From an uncultured Flavobacteriaceae bacterium (GTDB lineage: Bacteria > Bacteroidota > Bacteroidia > Flavobacteriales > Flavobacteriaceae): 64,000 nt of DNA. How positions within the stretch are numbered: the first letter of the stretch is position 1; each line of letters opens with the position of its first letter. The stretch covers positions 1 to 64,000 of the forward strand of contig CAJWVI010000005.1 of assembly GCA_913048115.1 (NCBI GenBank). Direction: 5' to 3'. Position numbers and translations under genes: made by a program. This document shows, in pieces, positions 38,780-61,121 of this stretch. The notes beneath the pieces are model-generated. The model was not told where the DNA came from and searched no databases. It saw nothing but the letters and a program-made list of their open reading frames with translations.

Positions 38780-39471
38780 TTTTTAAACGAATATTTAAAA
38801 ATCCAAGTTAGGATTTTGATGCCAGCAAATATAGCACCTTTTACGGTACCCGAAACCTTTGAAACTCCAATTCTGTTTCTGTACTTCATAGGGATCTCTG
38901 TGTAGCTGTATTTTTGTCTTAGGGCTTTTAATTGCATTTCAACAGTCCATCCATAGGTTTTGTCTTCCATGTGGAGGGCCAGTAATTTGTCATACTTTAT
39001 GGCTCTAAAAGGGCCAAGGTCTGTAAAACGAGAACCAAAAAGCAGTTTCATTAATGAGGTGGCTAGCCAGTTTCCAAATTTTTGCGGCACCGTCATAGCG
39101 CCTTTTTCTCTCAGTGTTTTAACACGAGCACCAATAACAAGATCTATGTTTTTTTCAATAATAGGCCTTACTAGCGATGTTAATTGCTCTGGGTAGTCAC
39201 TATAATCACCATCTAGAAAAACAATAATATCGGGCTTGATTTCTTGTTGGGCCACATAGGCCATAGCTCTTAAACAAGCATGCCCATACCCTCTTTCCAG
39301 TTCTGTTAAGACTTTAGCTCCTGCTTCTCTTGCCTTTTTAGCAGTTTGATCTGAAGAATTATTATTAACTACAATAATTTCGTCAACAATCGACGGAATA
39401 TCTTGAATGACTTTAACTATTGAGCTTTGTTCATTGTAAGCTGGAATGATGACCTTAATTATTTTATTCAA
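38776..39471 (-). CDS. Family 2 glycosyltransferase (DPM/DPG synthase-like)
   Basis: IKVIIPAYNEQSSIVKVIQDIPSIVDEIIVVNNNSSDQT; VFLDGDYSDYPEQL; LGPFRAIKYDKLLAL. Confidence 0.92.
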   Translation of the reverse strand: MNKIIKVIIPAYNEQSSIVKVIQDIPSIVDEIIVVNNNSSDQTAKKAREAGAKVLTELERGYGHACLRAMAYVAQQEIKPDIIVFLDGDYSDYPEQLTSLVRPIIEKNIDLVIGARVKTLREKGAMTVPQKFGNWLATSLMKLLFGSRFTDLGPFRAIKYDKLLALHMEDKTYGWTVEMQLKALRQKYSYTEIPMKYRNRIGVSKVSGTVKGAIFAGIKILTWIFKYSFKK

Positions 39472-39902
39472 TTTTCTTTTGTAGAGATTTTGAGTTCTTT
39501 TTGTTGCGCTGGTACGATATGCTCATCAAAATACCAAGAGGACCATTTTTCGATCGATAAAAAAAGACCGACACCAACAAATAGGGTTGTAACAATTAAT
39601 AGAATTAAATTTTTTCGTTTACTTTTCTTATCAATGGCGCATTGATTTTGTTTTTTTCTGAAAGAATAAACACCATAGATACCTATACACAATGCGACCC
39701 CCTTTAATACCCAGGCTCCCGTTCCAGAGCTTCCGTCTTCTTTGTAAAAGAAATCAGCAAAAGATATAGCATAAACACCGCTCATTAAACCAAACATAAA
39801 TAAAATAGCAGGTGCAACACAACACAGGATTCCTGCAATTGCAGCACTAATAGAATATTTCAAGCTCCACTTAATTAGATTTGGTTTTCTTTCTAGAGTC
39901 AT
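39468..39902 (-). CDS. MerT-like small membrane protein (predicted metal(loid) transport)
   Basis: Vicinal Cys-Cys in first TM: ISAAIAGILCCVAPAILFMFGLMSG; multi-TM; located within arsenic gene cluster. Confidence 0.6.
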   Translation of the reverse strand: MTLERKPNLIKWSLKYSISAAIAGILCCVAPAILFMFGLMSGVYAISFADFFYKEDGSSGTGAWVLKGVALCIGIYGVYSFRKKQNQCAIDKKSKRKNLILLIVTTLFVGVGLFLSIEKWSSWYFDEHIVPAQQKELKISTKEN

Positions 39903-39931
39903 AGTGTTTTATTTAAAATTAATCAAAGTTA

Positions 39932-40642
39932 CTAAATATGTTTTTTATAATACTTGTAAATCTCATCTGCAGATCCACCCAACCATTTTTTCATGTATAT
40001 CATCAAAAAGTGATATTGCACCCTCCATATTCCTTTTTTCTGGTACAGCCTTGCAGAGGTGACTATCCATTGTTGAATCACGACAAATTGCTTTCGTTTG
40101 TAGAGTTCGTTAATCAGTATGTTATCTTCATAGATAGTATATTGTTCATCAAAGCCTCCTATTTCTTCAAAGAGATCTTTGGTAATGAACTGGCTTTGAT
40201 CTCCACCACGACACACGCGCCAATTAAAACCAGTGCACCAACTAGCGAGTTTTAACCACCAATGGTTGCTGTCAAACTTCATCTTAAAACACCCTGCTAG
40301 TTTTTGTTTATTCACTTGTGAAATAATAAGGGCGTCAAACCCATTTGGTGGATTTGAATCTGCATGTAAAAAATATAAAATACTGCCTTTGCATTTTTTT
40401 GCTCCAAAATTCATTTGTTTAGCCCGTCCTCTCTCTGAAGAGAAAACATGAACAGCAATGGGAGAAGTTTTTGAGAATTTCATTACTAACCCAACCGTTT
40501 GATCATTACTACCTCCATCAATAACACAAATTTCTGAAATGTTACCCGCCGTAGCTTTTTGGCTTAGGTGTGTTAAAAGCGCTTCAATTATTGAAGCCTC
40601 ATTGAGGACAGGAATGATAATGCTAATAGTATGTATAGGCAT
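39932..40642 (-). CDS. TIGR04283-type (arsenosugar-cluster) family 2 glycosyltransferase
   Basis: ISIIIPVLNEASIIEALLTHL; SSERGRAKQMNFGAKKCKGSILYFLHADS; RVCRGGDQSQFITKDLFEEIGGFDE. Confidence 0.85.
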   Translation of the reverse strand: MPIHTISIIIPVLNEASIIEALLTHLSQKATAGNISEICVIDGGSNDQTVGLVMKFSKTSPIAVHVFSSERGRAKQMNFGAKKCKGSILYFLHADSNPPNGFDALIISQVNKQKLAGCFKMKFDSNHWWLKLASWCTGFNWRVCRGGDQSQFITKDLFEEIGGFDEQYTIYEDNILINELYKRKQFVVIQQWIVTSARLYQKKGIWRVQYHFLMIYMKKWLGGSADEIYKYYKKHI

Positions 40643-40666
40643 ACATATATAGGGTTCAAGTTGTTT

Positions 40667-41458
40667 TTACATGTTTAATTTCCAGTCATAATCCATGTAC
40701 AGTACTTTTGCATCGCTATTGATTTTTGTGTCTGCATATGTATTTAAAAAATCAATAAGATTTCCTTCTTGATTGAAGTCTTTTGAAAACCAATTAAATA
40801 TTTTTGATACCCTTATTAGCTCTGGTGTAATTGTATTTCTTTGTGTATCATTCACAAATTTTTTGGCCAAAGTGTCTAATTGCAGATCTACTTTTTTTGC
40901 AGTAAAGGCTTCGTTTAATAAGGGTGGGCAGGAGAAAGACGCACAATTTATACCGAAATGAATTCTAGGGTCTCCCATTTTTCTTAGAATTTGATGTTCT
41001 ATTTCATTTAAATTGTAAAGAGTGCCTCCAAGTTTCCATAAAGATTGTTTCCAAGGTTTTTTGATGTCTTTAATACTCTCAATGGGTTGATTTCTTATTA
41101 TTAAATCTATGGTCAGGGCATTATAGGCATTCATCCAGTAGGCTAATTTGTCTTCATGGCTCCATATCTCTGTGGGCATTTGTTTGCCTAGTTGAGCTAT
41201 GTATAAACGCAGGACCGTTCTGTTTTTTGTAAATTGAGCATAGTCAACGCTTCCATCTAGACGAACAAAATTGTTTAGTAGTTCATTAAACCCTGCGTGA
41301 TCAAAAGCCTCTTTGCTAGTGTTTTTTTTGAGTACTTCTGTATTGTTAAGGCCAGGTAATGTTGGCACACTTTTTTTTGAATTGACCACTTTTTGTGATG
41401 CGCTAGCGCCAAAAAGAAAAAGCGTGATCGTTGATATAATTACATAATTCTTCATCAT
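40667..41458 (-). CDS. DUF547 domain-containing secreted protein
   Basis: Signal peptide; KLAYWMNAYNALTIDLII...HQILRKMGDPRIHFGINCASFSCPPLLNEAFTAKKVDLQLD (DUF547 signature). Confidence 0.88.
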   Translation of the reverse strand: MMKNYVIISTITLFLFGASASQKVVNSKKSVPTLPGLNNTEVLKKNTSKEAFDHAGFNELLNNFVRLDGSVDYAQFTKNRTVLRLYIAQLGKQMPTEIWSHEDKLAYWMNAYNALTIDLIIRNQPIESIKDIKKPWKQSLWKLGGTLYNLNEIEHQILRKMGDPRIHFGINCASFSCPPLLNEAFTAKKVDLQLDTLAKKFVNDTQRNTITPELIRVSKIFNWFSKDFNQEGNLIDFLNTYADTKINSDAKVLYMDYDWKLNM

Positions 41459-41560
41459 TTATAGTCTATGGCAATTAAACAGGTGTGCGTTTAAATAAAA
41501 AAAGGCTATGTCTTAGTCGAGCAATAGACTTTATAATTACAATTTTTTTGTTGGTTTTTT

Positions 41561-42529
41561 TTAGCAGCATCCCCCGCCGTCATAATGGTAGGTAGATTCG
41601 CTAAAATAAATATCATTTCTACCAAGCCCTTGCAGTGCTTTTGTTGTTTTGTCACAAATAGCTAAGGGTTGGTTTTTTAATAAAATATGTCCTTTACCAT
41701 CGTCAAAGAAATCTTCATCTCCATAATAAATAGCAGCTCTACCTGTAAAGATACAAGGACCGTCTTCTGGCATAGGGTCTTTAATAGCGGCTACCTCTAT
41801 AGACTCTATGTAAATTAATTCTTCTGTTGGGTAGTTTTTTGGGTCAAGAATTCTGTAAGGTTTTCTGGCTCTAATCTCGATTGTTCCAAATCCTACATCT
41901 GTAAGGGCTTTAACATATTGTGCAATAGGCAAGCTGCCACTTAAGCAAAGTGCACGAAGACGGTCGTCCTCTCGAAGGGTATCATTCATCGGCTGCTCAC
42001 AGGTAGGATCACTCATTACTAATTTTCCGTGAGGTTTTAAAACACGATACATTTCCTCAATGGCTCGTTTTAAATCTTCTGCTTTAAAGATGTTAAACAA
42101 ACAGTTTTGTGCTGCTACATCAATACTGTTGTCATCAACAGGAAGATGCAAAGCATCTCCTTTTTTTAGGTCTACAAACTCAGATTTAAACCAATCGTTT
42201 TGTGCTTCGGCAACTTTAAAGTTTTTGCGAGAAGCCTCTAGCATTTCATCTACAACATCAACTCCTACAACACCTGCTTTTTGACGGTTGAAATAAGAGA
42301 ATTGCAACAATTCCATACCTCCACCAACGCCTACATATAGCATTTTTGGATTGTTTGATAAATCTCGCGCATGGACTGTGCTACCGCACCCGTAATTCAT
42401 TTCTTGCATGATTTTAGGGATTTTTAATCCTGGTAATTCCCAAACTGGGTTGGTTGTACAACAAAGTCCAATATCTGGTGTAAGGGCTGCTTCTTTATAA
42501 ACATCATGTGTAGCGTCTAGGTAGCTCAT
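41561..42529 (-). CDS. arsM: Arsenite methyltransferase ArsM (arsenosugar type)
   Basis: SAM-binding VGVGGGMELLQFSYF, VLKPHGKLVMSDPTCEQPM; conserved Cys residues CCTTNP, CLSGSLPIAQY; C-terminal GGGCC. Confidence 0.9.
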   Translation of the reverse strand: MSYLDATHDVYKEAALTPDIGLCCTTNPVWELPGLKIPKIMQEMNYGCGSTVHARDLSNNPKMLYVGVGGGMELLQFSYFNRQKAGVVGVDVVDEMLEASRKNFKVAEAQNDWFKSEFVDLKKGDALHLPVDDNSIDVAAQNCLFNIFKAEDLKRAIEEMYRVLKPHGKLVMSDPTCEQPMNDTLREDDRLRALCLSGSLPIAQYVKALTDVGFGTIEIRARKPYRILDPKNYPTEELIYIESIEVAAIKDPMPEDGPCIFTGRAAIYYGDEDFFDDGKGHILLKNQPLAICDKTTKALQGLGRNDIYFSESTYHYDGGGCC

Positions 42530-42615
42530 TGTTTTAGTGTTTTTTTGTTCTTATAAAAATTAACAAAATAAAATGTAAATTCTTAAAAAGTTGCCCGGCA
42601 GGCATTATATTTTAT

Positions 42616-43428
42616 TTATAGTGATTTGATGAGCTCTGTAAACAGGGTGATCATTTGTGGTTCTGCCTTTCCAGCTTGTGCTATGATATCTGGAATATCA
42701 ACGGGTTTTAAATTGTCTGGATCACACTCGTCTGTCAATACAGAAAGCGCAATAACAGGGAGTTGCAAATGATTGGCAACAATAACCTCTGGCACTGTAC
42801 TCATTCCAACGGCATCTGCGCCAATAACTTTTAGGTATTTATATTCTGCCCGGGTTTCAAGTTGAGGCCCCACAACACTTGCGTATACTCCTTTATGGAG
42901 TGTGATATTACGAGCCAGAGCAATTTCTTCTATTTTGGCATTCATGATAGCATCATAGGGTTGATTCATGTCTACAAAACGCTCTCCTAAAGCAGAGATG
43001 CCTTTAAAGGCCAAAGGCGAACCACCTTGAAGGTTGATGTGGTCATCAACAAGCATAATCTCTCCTTTTTTGAAGTTTAGGTTAATGGCCCCGGAGGCAT
43101 TACTTACAAATAATTTTGTAATTCCTAGTCCTTTCATAACGCGGACAGGAAAGGTAACATCAAGAAGAGAATAGCCTTCATAGACATGAAAACGACCCTG
43201 CATTAACACTACTTTTTTTCCTGCTAGTTCTCCATAGATTAATTTTCCTTTATGAAACTCAACGGTTGCCGTAGGGAAATTAGGAATATGGTTGTAGCTC
43301 ATTTCTGCCTCAATGGTTACATGGTCAATGATTTTGCCTAAACCAGTTCCTAGAATGATTCCTATCTCTGGAGTTCCAAATCCACGTTTTTGTAAAAATT
43401 CTATAGCTTCGTCGATGTATTTAATCAT
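42616..43428 (-). CDS. Purine nucleoside phosphorylase
   Basis: GIILGTGLG; MQGRFHVYEGYS; LFVSNASGAINL; GPQLETRAEYKYLKVIGADAVGMSTVPEVIVANH. Confidence 0.95.
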   Translation of the reverse strand: MIKYIDEAIEFLQKRGFGTPEIGIILGTGLGKIIDHVTIEAEMSYNHIPNFPTATVEFHKGKLIYGELAGKKVVLMQGRFHVYEGYSLLDVTFPVRVMKGLGITKLFVSNASGAINLNFKKGEIMLVDDHINLQGGSPLAFKGISALGERFVDMNQPYDAIMNAKIEEIALARNITLHKGVYASVVGPQLETRAEYKYLKVIGADAVGMSTVPEVIVANHLQLPVIALSVLTDECDPDNLKPVDIPDIIAQAGKAEPQMITLFTELIKSL

Positions 43429-43513
43429 AGGGTTTATTATGCTTTTGGTGTAATTATATGTAAAAGGTATTCTTTATTATTTTAGTATATCAAAAATACG
43501 GTTTTCTAAAATG

Positions 43514-44194
43514 CTAGTCTTTCAAGTGGCTTAAGAATTTGTGAAACACCTCTATATCTTTGATGTCATCAAAAATGTCTACATCATTTTTCTCTGTTAA
43601 CAGGCCTACTTTTTCTAATTCTAAATCTTTTAGCGTGTTTTTTAAAACGCTTTGCGCTCCCCAGGTTTTATTTTTAAACAGTGATGGCTTGATCATTTTC
43701 ATGCCCAATAAATAATACCCGCCGTCTTGCGCAGGACCGATAACAAAATCGTTTTTATCTAATGCTGTAAAGCCTTGTTCTATATCTTGTGTGGTCATCT
43801 CATACATGTCACTGCCAATAATGATAGCTCGCTGATAGCCCATGTTAAAAACATCTGTAAAGGCATTATGCATTCTCAGGCCTAAGTTTTCTCCTTCTTG
43901 TTGTTTTTTTCTAAAAATGCTAGGATCCCAAATATCATTGTCTCTAATTTGTACAGAGTAATATACGTAGGTGTCTGCACTACAAGGGCGTGTTATTTTT
44001 TCGGTATGCGCTAGTAGAAATTTATAAATACTTAGGGCGCTTTGATCACCAACGGTAGCTGCCAAACGTGTTTTGCATTTACCTAATTCTGGATTGCGTG
44101 TAAAAATGATAAGGGCATTTTTTGAAGTGGGGAAGTGGAAAACCTCTTTTGAGTTTTCATTGCCTGCTGTATTTTTTAATCCTAAAATTGCCAT
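43514..44194 (-). CDS. TIGR04282-type (DUF2064) glycosyltransferase of arsenosugar clusters
   Basis: ALIIFTRNPELGKCKTRLAATVG; IIGSDMYEMTTQDIEQGFTAL; NDFVIGPAQDGGYYLLGMK. Confidence 0.88.
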   Translation of the reverse strand: MAILGLKNTAGNENSKEVFHFPTSKNALIIFTRNPELGKCKTRLAATVGDQSALSIYKFLLAHTEKITRPCSADTYVYYSVQIRDNDIWDPSIFRKKQQEGENLGLRMHNAFTDVFNMGYQRAIIIGSDMYEMTTQDIEQGFTALDKNDFVIGPAQDGGYYLLGMKMIKPSLFKNKTWGAQSVLKNTLKDLELEKVGLLTEKNDVDIFDDIKDIEVFHKFLSHLKD

Positions 44195-52533: not shown

Positions 52534-54657
52534 ATGGCAATATTAAACAGCATTAGAAAAAGAGGAGTTTTCCTTATTATCATTATAGCGTTAGCATTAT
52601 TTTCATTCATCCTTGCAGATGTGATTCGTAATGGTGGATTTTCTTCAGAAAAATCACTAACCACAGTGGCTACTATAAACGGTGAGACACTTACTCGGGA
52701 CACCTTTATGAAGCAAGTGGAGCTAACCCAGCGTAACTTGGGTGAAAATGGTACTACAGCACAAGCAATGGGCTTGGTTTGGGATCGTGAATTACGTAAT
52801 GTATTACAGCAACAACAATACGATGCATTAGGACTTACAGCTCAAAAAGAACAACTAGAAGCCTCTTTGCGTCAAGGGCTGGCATCAAATCCAACATTTC
52901 AGGATGCTGACGGCTTTTTTAGTGCGCTAAAGGTGCAGGAATACATTGCAAATGTTAAAGCATCAAACCCTACGGCTTATCAACAATGGCTAGATTATGA
53001 AAATAGCCTAAAGAGTAGTACACTTCAAACTACCTACTACAACATGATTAAAGCAGGTATGAGAAGTACCATAAGTGATGGAGAACAACAATACCGTTTT
53101 GAGAATGACAAAATTAACATGCAATACGTGTATGTGCCTTACACGACTGTTGCAGACACAGATGTCGTTGTTACAGATGCAGAAATGGAAGCTTACATTA
53201 GAGACAATGCTACAGATTTTGAGGTAACACCCCAGGTAGATATTCAGTATGTGTCTTTTTCTGAAACACCGTCAGATATAGATATTCAAGATGCAGAAGC
53301 AAATATTACCGCTCTTTTAAAAGACCGCGAAGTTTACAATTCAAACATCAAAGATACAGAGATATTAAAAGGGCTGGAAAACACGACAGACTACTTAAAC
53401 TTTGTAAATGACAATAGTGATATTCCTTTTCAAGACGTATATTTCTTTAAAAGTGATATTCCTGAGGCTTTCGCAGCAGATCTTTTTGCTACAGAGGTAG
53501 GCGCAATATATGGTCCTTACAAAATGGGAAACACTAATAACATTTCAAAAGTAATTGGAGTGACGCAAATGCCAGATTCTGTTCAATCAAGACACATTTT
53601 AATAAGGTACCAAGGTTCCTTTAGAGCTTCTGACGCTATAACACGAAGTAAAGAAGATGCAAAGGCAATGGCAGATAGTATAACTACCATAATAAAAAGA
53701 AACAAAAATACTTTTGAAAATTTAGCCAAGACACTATCTGATGATAAATCAAACAGTGATAAAGGCGGTGACCTAGGATACTCTGGGCCAGGAAAAATGA
53801 CCAAAGAATTTAATGACTTTATATTTGATAACAAAACAGGTGCTCTTGGCGTTGTTGAAACAACCTATGGTTTCCATGTAGTAGAAGTTCAAGAACAAAA
53901 AAATAAGCAGAAAGCTATTAAGTTTGCTACCATTAGCAAAGAGATAGAGGCTTCAGAGAAAACACTCAATGAGGTCTTTGCTAGCGCCTCTAGGTTTGAA
54001 TTAGCAGCTCAAAAAGGTGATTTCTTTGAAATTGCAAAAGGGCAAGAGCTTGTATTAAAGCCAGTAAACAAAATTGGAGCTTTAGACGCTACTATTCCAG
54101 GAGTTGGTAACAATCGTAGCATTGTAAACTGGGCTTTTGGAGAAGAAGCAGCTGTTGGAGATGTAAAACGTTTTAATATTCTAGATGGATATGTTGTTGT
54201 TCAACTTACTAGAAAAAGCCCAAAAGGCTTAATGAGTATTGCTGAGGCATCTGCCTTGGTAATGCCAAAGGTTAGAAACCAGAAAAAAGCAATACAAATT
54301 AAAGCCAGTATGATTGGTGATGATTTAGATGTTATTGCTACTGCTCAGGGGGTAAGTGTTCAAAACGCTACCGCTATTACTATGGCAGCGCCAACAATTC
54401 CTGGTGCTGGAGCAGAACCTGCAGTAGTAGGAGCTGCGTTTGCTAAAGCTGCTGGAGAAACTACGGGTCTTATTACAGGGGAAAAAGGAGTATTTAAAGT
54501 ACGTGTTACTGCTGTCAATAATGCGCCAGTTTTAGAGACTTACACGCTATACGCAAATAGGCTAAACAATGCTGCTACACCAACGGTAAACACGAAGGTA
54601 TACCAAGCCCTAAAGAACGCTGCAGAGATTGATGACAATAGAGCTAACTTCTTTTAA
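52534..54657 (+). CDS. Peptidylprolyl isomerase, PpiD/SurN type
   Basis: N-terminal TM ILNSIRKRGVFLIIIIALALFSFILADVIRNGG; parvulin domain SRHILIRYQG...GGDLGYSGPGKMTKEFNDFIF...TTYGFHVVEV. Confidence 0.93.
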   Translation: MAILNSIRKRGVFLIIIIALALFSFILADVIRNGGFSSEKSLTTVATINGETLTRDTFMKQVELTQRNLGENGTTAQAMGLVWDRELRNVLQQQQYDALGLTAQKEQLEASLRQGLASNPTFQDADGFFSALKVQEYIANVKASNPTAYQQWLDYENSLKSSTLQTTYYNMIKAGMRSTISDGEQQYRFENDKINMQYVYVPYTTVADTDVVVTDAEMEAYIRDNATDFEVTPQVDIQYVSFSETPSDIDIQDAEANITALLKDREVYNSNIKDTEILKGLENTTDYLNFVNDNSDIPFQDVYFFKSDIPEAFAADLFATEVGAIYGPYKMGNTNNISKVIGVTQMPDSVQSRHILIRYQGSFRASDAITRSKEDAKAMADSITTIIKRNKNTFENLAKTLSDDKSNSDKGGDLGYSGPGKMTKEFNDFIFDNKTGALGVVETTYGFHVVEVQEQKNKQKAIKFATISKEIEASEKTLNEVFASASRFELAAQKGDFFEIAKGQELVLKPVNKIGALDATIPGVGNNRSIVNWAFGEEAAVGDVKRFNILDGYVVVQLTRKSPKGLMSIAEASALVMPKVRNQKKAIQIKASMIGDDLDVIATAQGVSVQNATAITMAAPTIPGAGAEPAVVGAAFAKAAGETTGLITGEKGVFKVRVTAVNNAPVLETYTLYANRLNNAATPTVNTKVYQALKNAAEIDDNRANFF

Positions 54658-54679
54658 AAGAATCAAAACTATTTCTAAG

Positions 54680-54714
54680 GCCGCCTACTTTTTTAAAGTA
54701 GGCGGTTTTTTTTT
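54680..54714. terminator. Bidirectional hairpin terminator between ppiD-like gene and blh
   Basis: GCCGCCTACTTTTTTAAAGTAGGCGGTTTTTTTTT; T-tract on plus strand; A-rich sequence on the other side is within blh. Confidence 0.8.
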
Positions 54715-55584
54715 AAACATTTTTGAAATAACAAATGAATGCGCAAAGGTTATTGCTCCTAAAAAAGAAAACACAATAGGTAGGAAGATTTGTTTGTCAT
54801 CCTTAAATAGATAAAGCAAAGCACCAATTCCAGCAATAGAAATAAACCACACTAGAAATGATTTTTGCACATATTTAATAAACGACTTCCAGGAAACTTC
54901 TTTGTATAGATACGATAGCTGTTCTATAATAGATGGAATACTGTGCCATAGAATAAAATAGATACCAAAGCTCCATATTAGGTTAGATATTTTAAACACT
55001 ATAAAAAACACAAATAATAAAAAGAGCTCATAGGCAATTAATCCTAAATTAAATGTTTTGTCTAAGTAGTACTTAATCCCTACGATTATAAGCACTACAA
55101 AGGAGCCTAGCAACACATAATTATAAACATTAGCGTGCAATGAGCTACCAATAATATCTTGTACTATAACAGACACCTCTTCTTTGTTTAATGCAAGTAT
55201 TAAGAAAAGTACTACAAGACCATAACTTAAGTATAGTGTATTGTTTAATAAGTTATTTTTATGACTAATGCTATGAAAGTGTTGTTCTCCAAAATGATAC
55301 CCGCTAAATAGAATAAAAAATAACATAGCGATCTTGGGTGCTATAAAGAATATGAGCGCCGCAACAACGACAACCAAGATATATCCAAATAAAAATAGCC
55401 CTAATCTTTTATAGGTAGCAGCTTCTTTTATTTTGCTTACAATTGAAATATCATTACTTCCATGAAGAATTCCTAAAGTAAAAATAAAGAAAAATGCGAT
55501 GCCATATTGTGCGTTTTCAGGTATTTGTCTGGTAAGCCATAAGCAAAAAAAGGTGCTTGTAATCAAGATATTTTTAATGTTCAT
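54685..55584 (-). CDS. blh: Brp/Blh family beta-carotene 15,15'-dioxygenase (retinal synthesis)
   Basis: Multi-TM with LGILHGSNDISIV, FSGYHFGEQHF, ILWHSIPSI; conserved His residues; divergent from proteorhodopsin. Confidence 0.9.
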   Translation of the reverse strand: MNIKNILITSTFFCLWLTRQIPENAQYGIAFFFIFTLGILHGSNDISIVSKIKEAATYKRLGLFLFGYILVVVVAALIFFIAPKIAMLFFILFSGYHFGEQHFHSISHKNNLLNNTLYLSYGLVVLFLILALNKEEVSVIVQDIIGSSLHANVYNYVLLGSFVVLIIVGIKYYLDKTFNLGLIAYELFLLFVFFIVFKISNLIWSFGIYFILWHSIPSIIEQLSYLYKEVSWKSFIKYVQKSFLVWFISIAGIGALLYLFKDDKQIFLPIVFSFLGAITFAHSFVISKMFKKKPPTLKK

Positions 55585-55711
55585 CCTCTAAATTTATCAA
55601 ATTAATAGTGTAATTTATTAAAGTTTATGAAATTACTTTAAAAAGTATTTGGTTGTTGCAATTTTTTTTGTTTTATTTATACTTATAAACTATAAACAAA
55701 ACTGAAATAAA

Positions 55712-56431
55712 ATGACAAATTCTACTTTATTAATTCTAGGAGACGTAAATAGTCCCGTGAATTTTACATTCTTTATTGGATGTATGGCAATGATGGCAGC
55801 TTCTGCTTTCTTTTTCTTATCATTAAACCAATTTGACAAAAAATGGAGAACTTCTGTTTTAGTTTCTGGTTTAATTACTTTTATTGCGGCAGTACACTAC
55901 ATGTACATGCGTGACGCAGCTATGGCTGGTGATGTTATGAATATTACTGCATTTAGATATGTGGATTGGATTTTAACTGTACCGTTAATGTGTGTTGAAT
56001 TTTACCTAATCCTTAAAGTGGCTGGTGCCAAAAAATCTTTAATGTGGCGTTTAATTTTACTTTCTGTGGTAATGCTTGTTACAGGATATATGGGAGAATC
56101 TGGTTCTGATTCTGTAATATTTGGAACAATATCTGGTTTAGCTTATTTCGCAATAGTATACGAAATTTGGTTAGGTGGAGCAGCAAAATTAGCAAAAGAA
56201 GCTGGTGGAGATGTGTTACACGCTCACAAAATACTATGTTGGTTTGTACTTGTTGGTTGGGCAATTTACCCAGTTGGTTACATGGCAGGAACAGCAGGAT
56301 GGTATGGTGAAGCAGGTTCATTCTTTGGAATGCAACTAGATATGCAAGTGCTTTACAACATCGCCGATGCAATTAACAAAATTGGATTTGGTTTAGTTAT
56401 TTATTCTTTAGCAGTTAAGAAAACAGCTTAA
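55712..56431 (+). CDS. Proteorhodopsin, DTE-type light-driven proton pump, Met at the 105-equivalent
   Basis: Helix C RYVDWILTVPLMCVEFYLIL (D-T-E at D97/T101/E108 equivalents), AVHYMYMRD His75 equivalent, helix G Lys in NIADAINKIGFGLVIYSLA. Confidence 0.96.
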   Translation: MTNSTLLILGDVNSPVNFTFFIGCMAMMAASAFFFLSLNQFDKKWRTSVLVSGLITFIAAVHYMYMRDAAMAGDVMNITAFRYVDWILTVPLMCVEFYLILKVAGAKKSLMWRLILLSVVMLVTGYMGESGSDSVIFGTISGLAYFAIVYEIWLGGAAKLAKEAGGDVLHAHKILCWFVLVGWAIYPVGYMAGTAGWYGEAGSFFGMQLDMQVLYNIADAINKIGFGLVIYSLAVKKTA

Positions 56432-56457
56432 GTTACCTAAACTTATAATTACATATT

Positions 56458-56487
56458 AGCGCAACCTTAGGGTTGCGCTTTTTTTTT
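56458..56487 (+). terminator. Rho-independent terminator after proteorhodopsin
   Basis: AGCGCAACCTTAGGGTTGCGCTTTTTTTT. Confidence 0.9.
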
Positions 56488-56530
56488 GCACTATTTTAAC
56501 GCTCACAAGGTGTTTTGTTTCTTAGCTTTT

Positions 56531-57436
56531 TTAAGCAATCATATCATCAAAGGCAATGACAGTGTTGTATCCTTTATTTTTGAAGTAGTTCATGTCGCTA
56601 TTTTTTCCAGTTGCCAATATAAAGTCACCTCCCCACGCTCCTAGACTCTTAATAGTGTTTGGGTAGTCTTTAAATAATAGTTCTTTAATAGTTTGTTGCC
56701 CTAAGAGCTTTGAGATTTTCTGCTCATGAGCCTCTAAGATTCTTTCAAAATCCTGAAGGGTATAACATACAAGAGTTTTTTTACTAAGGTCTGTAATGGT
56801 TTCTAGTAGCCTTGAATCTTTCTTTATTTTTTTGTAGGTTTCAATTCCTTTTTTACTATCCTGTTTTTGATTGAGATGCACAAAAAACAAACAATCTGTA
56901 AAACTCCAAGAAATGGCGCAAGGTTGCACCTCTGGCTTTTTATGTTTTATGGTGTAAAAAATAGGGGTGTTGTGCTGCGCTGCAGCAATATCATAGCCAC
57001 TACCTCCAAAACTTTCTTTTAAGAGTGTAAAGCCATCTATCTGTGCCCACTGAGCTATGTTGTTGATTAGTGTAGAGGAGGTTCCTAGCCCCCAATCTCT
57101 TGGGAAGTCAAGTTGTGTTACCACACTTAAACCCCTACATCCTTTAAGAAATGAAGAATTATGATTTCTAGCTGTTTGTAAAATACGACAAAGTGTCTCT
57201 GTAGTGCTAGAATGATTCCTTGCGGTTAATGTTTCTGTCTCGATGTGAGTTTCAAACCATATGGCTCCAGCATGATCTTTACTTATCCAGTGAATGCCTG
57301 GTGTCGTGCCTTTGCTTACACAAAGGGATTGTCCATATTTTGTTGGAATTGCCAATGCCGTGGCTCCGTCCAAAACAACATACTCTCCTGTAATAAGAAG
57401 TTTTCCGTTGCTATAATATGTTAATTGCTCCCCCAT
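56531..57436 (-). CDS. GYDIA family GHMP kinase (mevalonate/phosphomevalonate kinase-like)
   Basis: SNGKLLITGEYVVLDGATALAIPTKYGQSL; RDWGLGTSSTLINNIAQWA; SFGGSGYDIAAA. Confidence 0.9.
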   Translation of the reverse strand: MGEQLTYYSNGKLLITGEYVVLDGATALAIPTKYGQSLCVSKGTTPGIHWISKDHAGAIWFETHIETETLTARNHSSTTETLCRILQTARNHNSSFLKGCRGLSVVTQLDFPRDWGLGTSSTLINNIAQWAQIDGFTLLKESFGGSGYDIAAAQHNTPIFYTIKHKKPEVQPCAISWSFTDCLFFVHLNQKQDSKKGIETYKKIKKDSRLLETITDLSKKTLVCYTLQDFERILEAHEQKISKLLGQQTIKELLFKDYPNTIKSLGAWGGDFILATGKNSDMNYFKNKGYNTVIAFDDMIA

Positions 57437-57437
57437 G

Positions 57438-58751
57438 TTATGCTCTTAATTGTTCAACAAAATCGATGACCGCACTATGAGAAATTTGCTGTGTCGTGAA
57501 ATGTACTACAGCTGCCTGTTTTTCTGTATCGGTGGCTTGTACCCCATTTAAAATATTCATTAAATGCATTTTCATGTGCCCTTTCTGTATACCAGTGGTT
57601 ACCAAAGAGCGCAATGCGGCAAAGTTTTGTGCTAAGCCTGCAACAGCTACTAACTGCATTAATTTCTTAGCATTTGGGTTTTGTAAAAGATCAAAAGAAA
57701 AGCGCACCAAAGGATGTAATGATGTTAAGCCACCAACGGTTCCTAGGGCTAGTGGAAGTTCAATCCACATTTTAAAAACATTGTCTTCAATCTCTGCGTG
57801 TGTTAAACTGCTATATTGACCATCTTTAGATGCATAGGCATGTATCCCAGCCTCTACCGCTCTAAAGTCATTTCCTGTAGCTAGAATAACAGCGTCAATG
57901 CCGTTCATGATTCCTTTGTTGTGGGTAACGGCTCTTCTTGGAGTTGCCTTAGCGATAGCGATAGCACGAACTAACTTTTCTGCAAATACGCGTCCTGAAA
58001 CATCTTTTTGAGCCAATTGATCTACATGGCAGGATACAGAAGCGCGAACCAAGCACTCTGGTACATAGTTAGACAAAATACTCATAACAACTTCTGGAAA
58101 GGTGTTAGCGCTTTTAAAAAGGTGATATGTTTTAGCCTCTCTTTCAAAAGTTTGAGCAAATGTCTCTAGACACGTATTAATAAAATTGGCGCCCATAGCA
58201 TCCAATGTTTCAAAGGTGCAATGTAGTTGAAAAAACCCCTCTAGAGTTTGGGTGGTATCAATGAGCTTGATGTCTACCAGGCCACCTCCACGCTTCTTCA
58301 TGTTTTTTTCAACAGCGATAATACTAGCCACTAGTTTGGGCTTTATAAAGGCAAAAAAGCCTGTCATGTCTGTCACATTTCCGAAGTAGTTGAGATGTAC
58401 TTGGCCATTTTTAATAGTGCTAATAACCTGTGTGGTAAAGCCTCCCTTTTCTAGCCAAAATTTTGCAGCATTACTAGCGGCAGCAACTACAGAGCTTTCT
58501 TCAATCACCATAGGGATTGTGTACAAGGTGTTGTTGATTAAAAAGTTGGGTGCAACCCCCATTGGTAGGTAGTAGTTGGATATGGTGTTTTCTATGAAAT
58601 CATCATGTAGTTTTTGGAGCGCTGTGTTGCTATTCCAGTACGTTTGAAGCACTTCAGTAGCGGTCTCATTTCCATTAAAATAGGCCTGTGTAAGCCACGT
58701 AATTTTTTGAGACTTGGAAAGTTTTGAAAATCCTGAAACGGGATTCGTCAT
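57438..58751 (-). CDS. mvaA: Hydroxymethylglutaryl-CoA reductase, degradative (class II) type
   Basis: GFSKLSKSQKITWL; ENTISNYYLPMGVAPNFLINN; MVIEESSVVAAASNAAKFW; NKGIMNGIDAVILATGNDFRAVEAG. Confidence 0.93.
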   Translation of the reverse strand: MTNPVSGFSKLSKSQKITWLTQAYFNGNETATEVLQTYWNSNTALQKLHDDFIENTISNYYLPMGVAPNFLINNTLYTIPMVIEESSVVAAASNAAKFWLEKGGFTTQVISTIKNGQVHLNYFGNVTDMTGFFAFIKPKLVASIIAVEKNMKKRGGGLVDIKLIDTTQTLEGFFQLHCTFETLDAMGANFINTCLETFAQTFEREAKTYHLFKSANTFPEVVMSILSNYVPECLVRASVSCHVDQLAQKDVSGRVFAEKLVRAIAIAKATPRRAVTHNKGIMNGIDAVILATGNDFRAVEAGIHAYASKDGQYSSLTHAEIEDNVFKMWIELPLALGTVGGLTSLHPLVRFSFDLLQNPNAKKLMQLVAVAGLAQNFAALRSLVTTGIQKGHMKMHLMNILNGVQATDTEKQAAVVHFTTQQISHSAVIDFVEQLRA

Positions 58752-58943
58752 ACATTTGAGTTTTAAGCTACAAAGATACTATAAAGCTTAGTATGTTGTT
58801 GAATATGAAAGCATCTTGAAATTTTAATTTTTTTAGATTATATGTTTTTTTGTACACGCTAGGCTGACCTTGTATTTAACCCTCAAAATAGGACCTAGTT
58901 TCATATAATTTTGTTAAACTTGTGTTATCATAAAATTAACATA

Positions 58944-61121
58944 TTGAAGACTACAACCTACCTACGATTTTTTCTGCTTTTTCTTATAACAATTAGTTCT
59001 GTAACGGGACAACAAAAAGACATCACTCTTGAAGAAATTTGGAGTGGGGGATTTAGAACGCAAGGTTTAGAGGAGTTACGCTCATTGAAAAACGGCAAAC
59101 AATACGCGGTTCTAAATTACAACAGGCGCTCTAGTGCATCCACGGTTGATGTGTATGATTATAAAACCGGAGAAAAAGTAAAGACTGTAGTCTCTTCAAA
59201 TCAAGTCGAGGGAGCTACTTATTTTTTAACATACAGCTTTAGTGAGGATGAATCTAAGCTTTTACTAGCAACAGATCTAGAACAAATTTACAGGCGTTCT
59301 TCTTTGGGTACTTATTATGTGTATGACATATATAACAAAGAAATGACTCCTGTCTCTGAACAAAAAATACAAGAACCTGTTTTAAATGCTGCAGGAACTA
59401 AAGTGGCCTATGGCTATAATAATAATATCTTTATTAAAGACTTAGCTAGTGGCAGCACCACACAAATTACAAATGATGGATTAAAAAACAGCATCATTAA
59501 TGGTATTACAGACTGGGTGTATGAAGAAGAGTTTGCATTTGTGCGCGCCTTTGACTGGAACAAAGATGGGACCAAGATTGGGTACATAAAGTTTGATGAG
59601 AGTGAAGTGCCTCGTTTTTCTATGGATGTGTACGGTACAGACCTGTACCCTACTCAACAAGTATTTAAATACCCTAAAGCTGGAGATCCTAATGCTAGTG
59701 TTAGTCTGCACGTATATGATGTAGAGGCCGGAAGAACAAGCAACGTAGATCTATCTGCTTATAATACCTACTATATTCCAAGAATTAAATGGACTATGGA
59801 TACTAATGTACTAAGTGTACAAACTACAAACAGAAAACAAAATGTTGTAGACCTTATTTTTGTTGACACCTATAACAATGAGACCTCATTAGTGCATCAA
59901 GAAAAAGATGATGCCTATGTTGATATTACAGATGATCTCACCTTTTTTGAAGACAATAGTTTTATCTGGACTAGTGAGCGTGATGGATGGAACCATATCT
60001 ATCATTTCAATAAAAACGGAAAACTTAAAAACCAAATCACAAAGGGCGCTTGGGAGGTAACCAATTATTACGGCTATGACCCAATGAGCAATACTGTTTT
60101 TTATCAAAGCACAGAAAATGGGAGTATTAACCGTGGCGTGTATAGTGTCGATGTTAAAGGCACTAATAAAAAAGGCCTCTCTGTGCAGCAGGGAACAAAT
60201 AGTGCTTCTTTTAGTGCAGATTTTTCTTATTTCATTAACACCTTTCAAAGCGCAACATCGCCAAGTGTGTATTCTTTAAATGATGCAAAGACAGGTGCTG
60301 TTGTTAAAGAGATTAAAAACAATACAGCAGTAGCAACTAAAGTTGCAGGCTATAAAGTATCTCCTAAAGAATTTTCTACTATTTCTATCAATGGGTATGA
60401 TTTAAATATGTACACCATCAAACCTCTTGATTTTGATGCCAGTAAGCAATACCCATTGTTTATGTATCAGTACTCGGGTCCAGGTTCACAAAATGTAGCA
60501 AATCGATGGAATGCGAGTAATGATTACTGGCATCAAATGTTGGCCCAGCAAGGATATATTGTAGTATGTATAGATGGAAGAGGGACAGGATTAAAAGGAA
60601 GAGATTTCAAGAAAGTAACTCAATTAGAACTTGGGAAATACGAGGTGCAAGATCAAATTGATGCTGCAAAAAAATTGGGTACTAAATCTTATATTGACGC
60701 AAGTAGAATAGGTATTTGGGGCTGGAGCTATGGAGGCTTTATGTCTAGTAATTGTTTGTTTCAAGGAGCAGACACCTTTGCTATGGCTATAGCTGTTGCG
60801 CCTGTAAGTAGTTGGAGGTTTTATGACACCATCTACACAGAACGGTACATGGCTACCCCTCAAGAAAACGCAAAGGGCTATGATGCTAATTCGCCAATAT
60901 CTCATGTCGATAAAATGAAAGGGTCATTTTTACTAGTACATGGTAGTGCAGATGATAATGTACATGTGCAAAATACAACGCGTTTGGTAGAGGCCTTAGT
61001 GCAAGCCAATAAACAGTTTGACTGGGCGATCTATCCAGACAAAAACCATGGTATTTATGGAGGTAACACCCGCTTACATCTATACACCAAGATGACTAAT
61101 TTTATTAAAGAGAACTTATAA
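58944..61121 (+). CDS. S9 family peptidase (dipeptidyl peptidase IV-like), TTG start likely
   Basis: DPPIV N-terminal propeller; catalytic GIWGWSYGGFMSSN, HGSADDNVHVQNT, DKNHGIYGG. Confidence 0.94.
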   Translation: MKTTTYLRFFLLFLITISSVTGQQKDITLEEIWSGGFRTQGLEELRSLKNGKQYAVLNYNRRSSASTVDVYDYKTGEKVKTVVSSNQVEGATYFLTYSFSEDESKLLLATDLEQIYRRSSLGTYYVYDIYNKEMTPVSEQKIQEPVLNAAGTKVAYGYNNNIFIKDLASGSTTQITNDGLKNSIINGITDWVYEEEFAFVRAFDWNKDGTKIGYIKFDESEVPRFSMDVYGTDLYPTQQVFKYPKAGDPNASVSLHVYDVEAGRTSNVDLSAYNTYYIPRIKWTMDTNVLSVQTTNRKQNVVDLIFVDTYNNETSLVHQEKDDAYVDITDDLTFFEDNSFIWTSERDGWNHIYHFNKNGKLKNQITKGAWEVTNYYGYDPMSNTVFYQSTENGSINRGVYSVDVKGTNKKGLSVQQGTNSASFSADFSYFINTFQSATSPSVYSLNDAKTGAVVKEIKNNTAVATKVAGYKVSPKEFSTISINGYDLNMYTIKPLDFDASKQYPLFMYQYSGPGSQNVANRWNASNDYWHQMLAQQGYIVVCIDGRGTGLKGRDFKKVTQLELGKYEVQDQIDAAKKLGTKSYIDASRIGIWGWSYGGFMSSNCLFQGADTFAMAIAVAPVSSWRFYDTIYTERYMATPQENAKGYDANSPISHVDKMKGSFLLVHGSADDNVHVQNTTRLVEALVQANKQFDWAIYPDKNHGIYGGNTRLHLYTKMTNFIKENL

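Follow-up and report, generated by a model that had tools for sequence, protein, structure and literature searches.

Proteorhodopsin (PR) and the retinal-forming enzyme Blh are commonly treated as the products of a single transferable unit. In Flavobacteriia, PR and blh have been described as adjacent genes that are gained and lost at fixed sites and are carried by smaller genomes, and at the L-serine dehydratase site of Polaribacter an ancestral presence followed by loss has been inferred (Kumagai et al. 2018, PMC5932025). In Dokdonia, a xanthorhodopsin gene is present or absent within a syntenic region, which was read as the transfer or loss of a single gene (Riedel et al. 2013, PMC3587595). 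PMC1885257 credits McCarren and DeLong with the finding that PR and retinal-biosynthesis genes are transferred together. The locus analyzed here is a blh/PR pair in a stretch of 64,000 nucleotides, hereafter the window, that forms the start of contig CAJWVI010000005.1 of an uncultured Flavobacteriaceae bacterium. Its genome (G000; 2.0 Mb in 80 contigs) encodes one rhodopsin.

This pair is likely to stem from a single insertion of a chimeric blh/PR unit into a conserved backbone, with a later exchange of the opsin core in congeners and with the neighboring genes for HMG-CoA reductase (HMGR) and a GHMP kinase as bystanders. It resembles the pair described by Kumagai et al. in being formed by divergent neighbors, in its occurrence in smaller genomes, and in its mobility between sites. 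Contrary to that pair, it lies between the genes for a PpiD-like peptidyl-prolyl isomerase (PPIase) and GHMP kinase instead of at the L-serine dehydratase site of Polaribacter, and blh and PR differ in ancestry. As in Dokdonia, a rhodopsin gene is present or absent between conserved genes; however, there it is a second rhodopsin without blh, and here it is a PR with a blh neighbor and a later replacement within the gene. With the co-transfer of McCarren and DeLong, as far as PMC1885257 cites it, the locus shares two photosystem genes lying side by side, but co-ancestry was tested for the present pair and rejected. No published report of intragenic PR exchange or of conflict between PR and blh trees was found in a search that left out most subscription journals; within the literature searched, the insertion site, the partner mismatch, and the intragenic replacement are, as far as shown here, new. 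The features of the locus are the following, in window coordinates:

52534-54657, plus strand: PpiD/SurA-like PPIase (Rotamase_3, E=2e-31; SurA_N_2), left side of the backbone
54677-54709: terminator with a 15-bp stem between the convergent PpiD and blh genes; a similar hairpin lies at this place in all five PR-bearing species of the genus
54685-55584, minus strand: blh, beta-carotene 15,15'-dioxygenase (PF15461, 1.6e-32; TIGR03753, 159 bits against a cut-off of 95)
55585-55711: divergent blh/PR intergenic region, 127 bp, aligning as genus-type in the five PR-bearing species, with no clear outside match
55712-56431, plus strand: PR (PF01036, 131.7 bits against a cut-off of 24.6)
56012-56347, plus strand: PR interior, gene nucleotides ~301-636, the window equivalent of the apparently foreign stretch of G256 (~328-693 in G253)
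56432-56530, plus strand: PR 3' flank, with a hairpin (56458-56479) and a T-run
56531-57436, minus strand: GYDIA-family GHMP kinase (NF040656, 412 bits against 225), right side of the backbone
57438-58751, minus strand: HMGR (PF00368; TIGR00532, 287 bits against 260)
58911-61121, plus strand: S9 (DPP-IV-type) peptidase (PF00930, PF00326), the next backbone gene, in conserved order

The original prediction, made from the DNA alone, had described a divergent blh/PR pair between a PpiD-like PPIase and a GHMP kinase-HMGR pair, and both the reading frames and the family profiles agree with it; the endpoints of the span it gave, 54685-58751, coincide exactly with the stop of blh and the start of HMGR. 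PpiD is convergent with blh, a spacer of 127 bp separates the divergent blh and PR, another of 99 bp lies between the convergent PR and GHMP kinase genes, and GHMP kinase and HMGR follow each other on the minus strand with 1 bp between them. This order exceeds what chance or a quirk of assembly would give, since it is also present in the genomes of four more species of the genus.

The genus was sampled with 11 genomes, two of which are incomplete and uninformative for the site. The space between PpiD and GHMP kinase is occupied by blh/PR in all five PR-bearing species (G000, G253, G256, G257, and G259; 1.8-2.1 Mb), with PR about 100 bp from the kinase in each, and is empty in the four well-assembled congeners that lack PR and hold the kinase (G077, G251, G252, and G258; 3.2-3.6 Mb). 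In the latter, PpiD and the kinase are only ~90-115 bp apart, separated by a short spacer that contains one terminator. The PR-bearing order, fmp-TPR-LptC-CNNM-PpiD-blh-PR-GHMP-HMGR-S9-POT, is identical in these congeners minus blh/PR, the sole difference being some extra sequence between LptC and CNNM in G252. In a backbone tree of four proteins, the PR-bearing species form a clade (support 100) nested within the genus, and the deeper branches lack PR. Outside the genus, 33 of the 40 PR-bearing Flavobacteriaceae examined have a PpiD-GHMP gap below 200 bp and carry their PR elsewhere.

With the site empty in the congeners lacking PR, in the deep branches, and in most other genera, the empty state is therefore taken as ancestral, and one insertion would account for the whole pattern. 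The unit would have entered once, in the ancestor of the small-genome clade. The earlier suggestion that PR/blh was inserted into a conserved backbone thus holds: the order at the PPIase/GHMP kinase junction is intact, not disrupted, in relatives without PR, and the PR tree departs from the backbone tree. The opposite course, in which PR/blh occupied this site from the ancestor of the genus, or an even older one, onward and was then lost repeatedly, has precedent in the losses documented at fixed sites in Flavobacteriia (PMC5932025), but it is very unlikely here, given that the site is empty in the other genera examined as well as in both of the deepest-branching lineages of the genus and that the junctions without PR contain just a short terminator spacer.

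Other genes have been found at the same junction: a DUF2157 and GDYXXLXY pair in G225 (L215), and an outer-membrane protein with a Fic-domain protein in G123 (L234). The site therefore tolerates insertions. A mobile element or genomic island was ruled out as the carrier, as PpiD and GHMP kinase enclose no integrase gene, the only tRNA of the window is 8 kb distant from the insert, and no convincing repeats flank the insert. The GC content of blh (0.30) and PR (0.354), compared with 0.364 for the window, gives no informative sign of foreign DNA.

The two genes of the insert do not share one phylogeny. Trees were compared over a family-wide set of 117 PR/blh loci. The blh genes of the five PR-bearing species form one clade (100), which joins those of G118, G185, G201, L143, L146, and L148 (96; 95/97 for the genus together with its relatives), and the backbone tree likewise places G118, G185, and G201 nearest to the genus. 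The PR of the genus groups instead with a distant clade (97/99) comprising G047, L128, L129, L132, L133, and G165-like opsins. In G047, L129, and L132, as well as in G123 and L136-L144, which form the next group outwards from this PR type, blh-PR sits between dnaK and what we take to be thioesterase-menF-menD-like genes, named partly from their protein starts and general knowledge. In approximately unbiased (AU) tests, moving blh to the position that would agree with PR is rejected, both with the three nearest (p=4e-6) and with the wider group (p=0.0013), and so is moving PR to the position that would agree with blh (p=1.4e-6). The trees of the two genes are incompatible; this mismatch, like the apparent exchange of PR alleles within the fixed locus described below, was missed by the original prediction. 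Across the family, 33 splits of the PR tree are supported, and 18 of them contradict a supported split of the blh tree, which suggests that both neighbors have been exchanged independently.

The flanks of PR were also compared with outside loci. The best outside match of the 3' flank is L142, with a score of 122 against a shuffled maximum of 30, followed by L137, L138, and L136, and its homology to the dnaK-blh-PR-men loci reaches almost to the GHMP stop codon. This agrees with a putative foreign origin of PR. Upstream of PR, no outside match exceeded those of shuffled sequences. The inserted unit would then be chimeric, with blh coming from the lineage of the host's relatives, and PR together with its 3' flank from the PR lineage located between dnaK and menaquinone genes in other genera. 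Separately, a TTTTAACG/C element was observed ~65-70 nt past the PR stop, beyond the T-run of the terminator, in 13 of 124 loci (L129, L130, L132, L136, L138, L140-L142, L144, L081, and the genus), and in 0-1 downstream of other genes.

A serious alternative to the import of a ready-made chimeric pair is that a native blh was relocated and its PR partner exchanged afterwards. In G201 and L143, blh-PR is flanked by an M28 peptidase on one side and tRNA-His-PIG-L-CGS on the other, and a blh with its native PR could have moved from there to the PpiD/GHMP site, its PR being swapped later. The blh of the genus is closest to these two genomes that use the M28 site, and this site is empty in the PR-lacking congeners G251 and G252, where M28 and tRNA-His-PIG-L are adjacent, and has rearranged surroundings in G000. 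Nevertheless, relocation appears the less probable course, because the empty native site of G251 and G252 holds no PR or blh remnant and the foreign type of the PR 3' flank extends to the GHMP stop, which means that the insert does not have a native right end. A tRNA-His gene lies in the empty native site, between PIG-L and the M28 peptidase, in the congeners without PR (L256:7754-8414, L259:8104-8516), and also near PR in G201 and L143.

After the single insertion of the chimeric unit, at least two congeners would have exchanged their opsin core through homologous recombination. G256 and G259 are sisters on the backbone tree (99), and their DNA is 92-96% identical in GHMP kinase, HMGR, and PpiD and 91% in blh, but only 82% in PR. 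Within PR, the first 180 nt are 94-100% identical, the middle 59-88%, and the end 91%. The nonsynonymous divergence (dN) between both species is 0.126 in PR, three to eight times the 0.016-0.037 of blh, GHMP kinase, and HMGR. The closest relative of the PR middle is L142 for G256 and L132 for G253, and a permutation test of these tracts gave p=5e-5 in both cases, the floor of 20,000 permutations; the same comparison found no comparable foreign tract in the PR allele of the window. A tree of the gene ends recovers the genus as monophyletic (97/98), and in a tree of the middle the genus is split over three positions, and 0% of the bootstrap trees recover it as one group. The gene ends, promoter region, blh, and terminator remain of the genus type in G253 and G256. 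In each of these two species, a different foreign allele thus appears to have taken the place of the PR interior. The conserved stretches encoding the first helices and the last helix probably served for the exchange, and blh, promoter, and terminator would have stayed as they were.

As to the ancestral PR allele of the genus, parsimony favors the window type (G000, G257, and G259); a G256-type core, by contrast, would be in line with the resemblance of the 3' flank to L142. The synonymous divergence (dS) between G000 and G259 is 0.47 in PR compared with 1.3-1.6 in the neighboring genes, a low value that codon bias or additional exchange may explain. A second weak PR match in G253 (C24:24392) was rejected as a PR remnant, judging from its reading frames.

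Several points weigh against a chimeric insertion with later core exchange. The placement of blh, though supported, is deep, as the gene sits on a long stem; an AU test on proteins, with the full PR set and only the five species constrained together, gave p=0.10; and the exact donor is absent from the sampled genomes. The main caveat of the analysis is chimerism in metagenome assemblies, since each of the five PR-bearing species is represented by one genome, which is or seems to be assembled from a metagenome. The mosaic PR genes of G253 and G256 could in that case be artifacts joining co-occurring species: the mosaic parents share exact runs of 23-32 bases in conserved PR blocks, long enough either for genuine recombination or for a switch in a short-k assembly, and G256 and the donor-like L142 stem from the same Fram Strait study. 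Such an origin is unlikely, however, as the two cases come from different assemblies with different donors, and each mosaic requires two switches within 720 bases plus a return to the same genome. Furthermore, the G256 contig spans 646 kb of a genome in seven contigs, the study behind G256 (FRAM18_bin137) used PacBio HiFi and Illumina reads, either of which may be the source of the bin (PMC8254474), and the PR/blh conflict is independent of the two mosaic genes.

The proximity of HMGR had been read as a locus joining precursor supply, retinal cleavage, and opsin. This idea was not sustained, because the adjacency is private to one subclade, involves no shared transcription unit, and leaves the carotenoid (crt) genes elsewhere. 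That selection placed PR/blh beside HMGR for the joint regulation of isoprenoid supply and retinal/opsin would be in keeping with HMGR and blh being steps of a single long pathway and with their genes being neighbors in five species. Yet GHMP kinase/HMGR adjoins PR in 0 of the 56 PR-bearing genomes outside the genus with a recognized GHMP kinase, and species lacking PR keep GHMP kinase-HMGR in the same order and place. Moreover, the intermediate crt genes are on another contig, and PR and the GHMP kinase/HMGR pair point toward each other, with terminators on both sides; therefore, they have no transcript in common. With neither independent recurrence nor a shared transcription unit, selection for joint regulation is highly improbable, and functional coupling with HMGR was discarded on the basis of distribution and gene orientation. 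The adjacency is best regarded as incidental to the insertion site, where HMGR/GHMP kinase would have been present beforehand, read towards PR from their own side.

The occurrence of occupied and empty sites within one genus allows gain, partner mismatch, and opsin replacement to be told apart. Whether this extends to the family is an evenly balanced question: the opsin of Flavobacteriaceae may be an independently exchangeable core, swapped between genera via the DNA of the first and last helices, with blh, promoter, and terminator inherited vertically and with opsin and retinal-enzyme neighbors routinely of different ancestry. If opsin cores are indeed swapped in place, PR gene trees would be unfit as host or photosystem trees, and selection for color, pump rate, or antenna binding would become testable as the driver of the swaps.

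The unit itself would be a self-contained photosystem of two divergent genes, each with its own terminator, and blh and PR are adjacent and divergent in all 75 loci holding both genes. It is predicted to work as a retinal-PR light-driven proton pump from its DTE motif, Schiff-base lysine, and conserved Blh histidines. The best PDB match of PR is 9jou 'Proteorhodopsin' (326 bits), and PDB proteorhodopsins match at E=1e-96 to 1e-43. The protein belongs to the type-1 rhodopsin fold family and has Asp85/Thr89/Glu96 (DTE), Schiff-base Lys223, and His62. Met93 occupies the color-tuning position, and green absorption is presumably to be expected, as with flavobacterial PRs generally. Blh belongs to the Brp/Blh family, and its His41, His97, His214, and His282 are invariant among the aligned loci. 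A scan for sigma-70 promoters gave 22 hits against 21.5 expected, that is, chance level. The hairpin between PpiD and blh (54677-54709) overlaps the final blh codons, where the protein ends in KKPPTLKK.

Beta-carotene would be supplied by an operon elsewhere in the genome, crtI-crtB-crtZ-crtY, on contig C13 of G000 at ~39200-43670 (L211:6201-10667). It comprises a MerR/B12-domain regulator, crtI, crtB, a CrtZ-like hydroxylase, and a lycopene cyclase of the PF18916 type, recognized from the crtB neighborhood; a search for PF05834 lycopene cyclases in the genus gave chance-level matches only. The MerR regulator with a B12-binding domain precedes the crt genes and could be a CarH/LitR-like light sensor.

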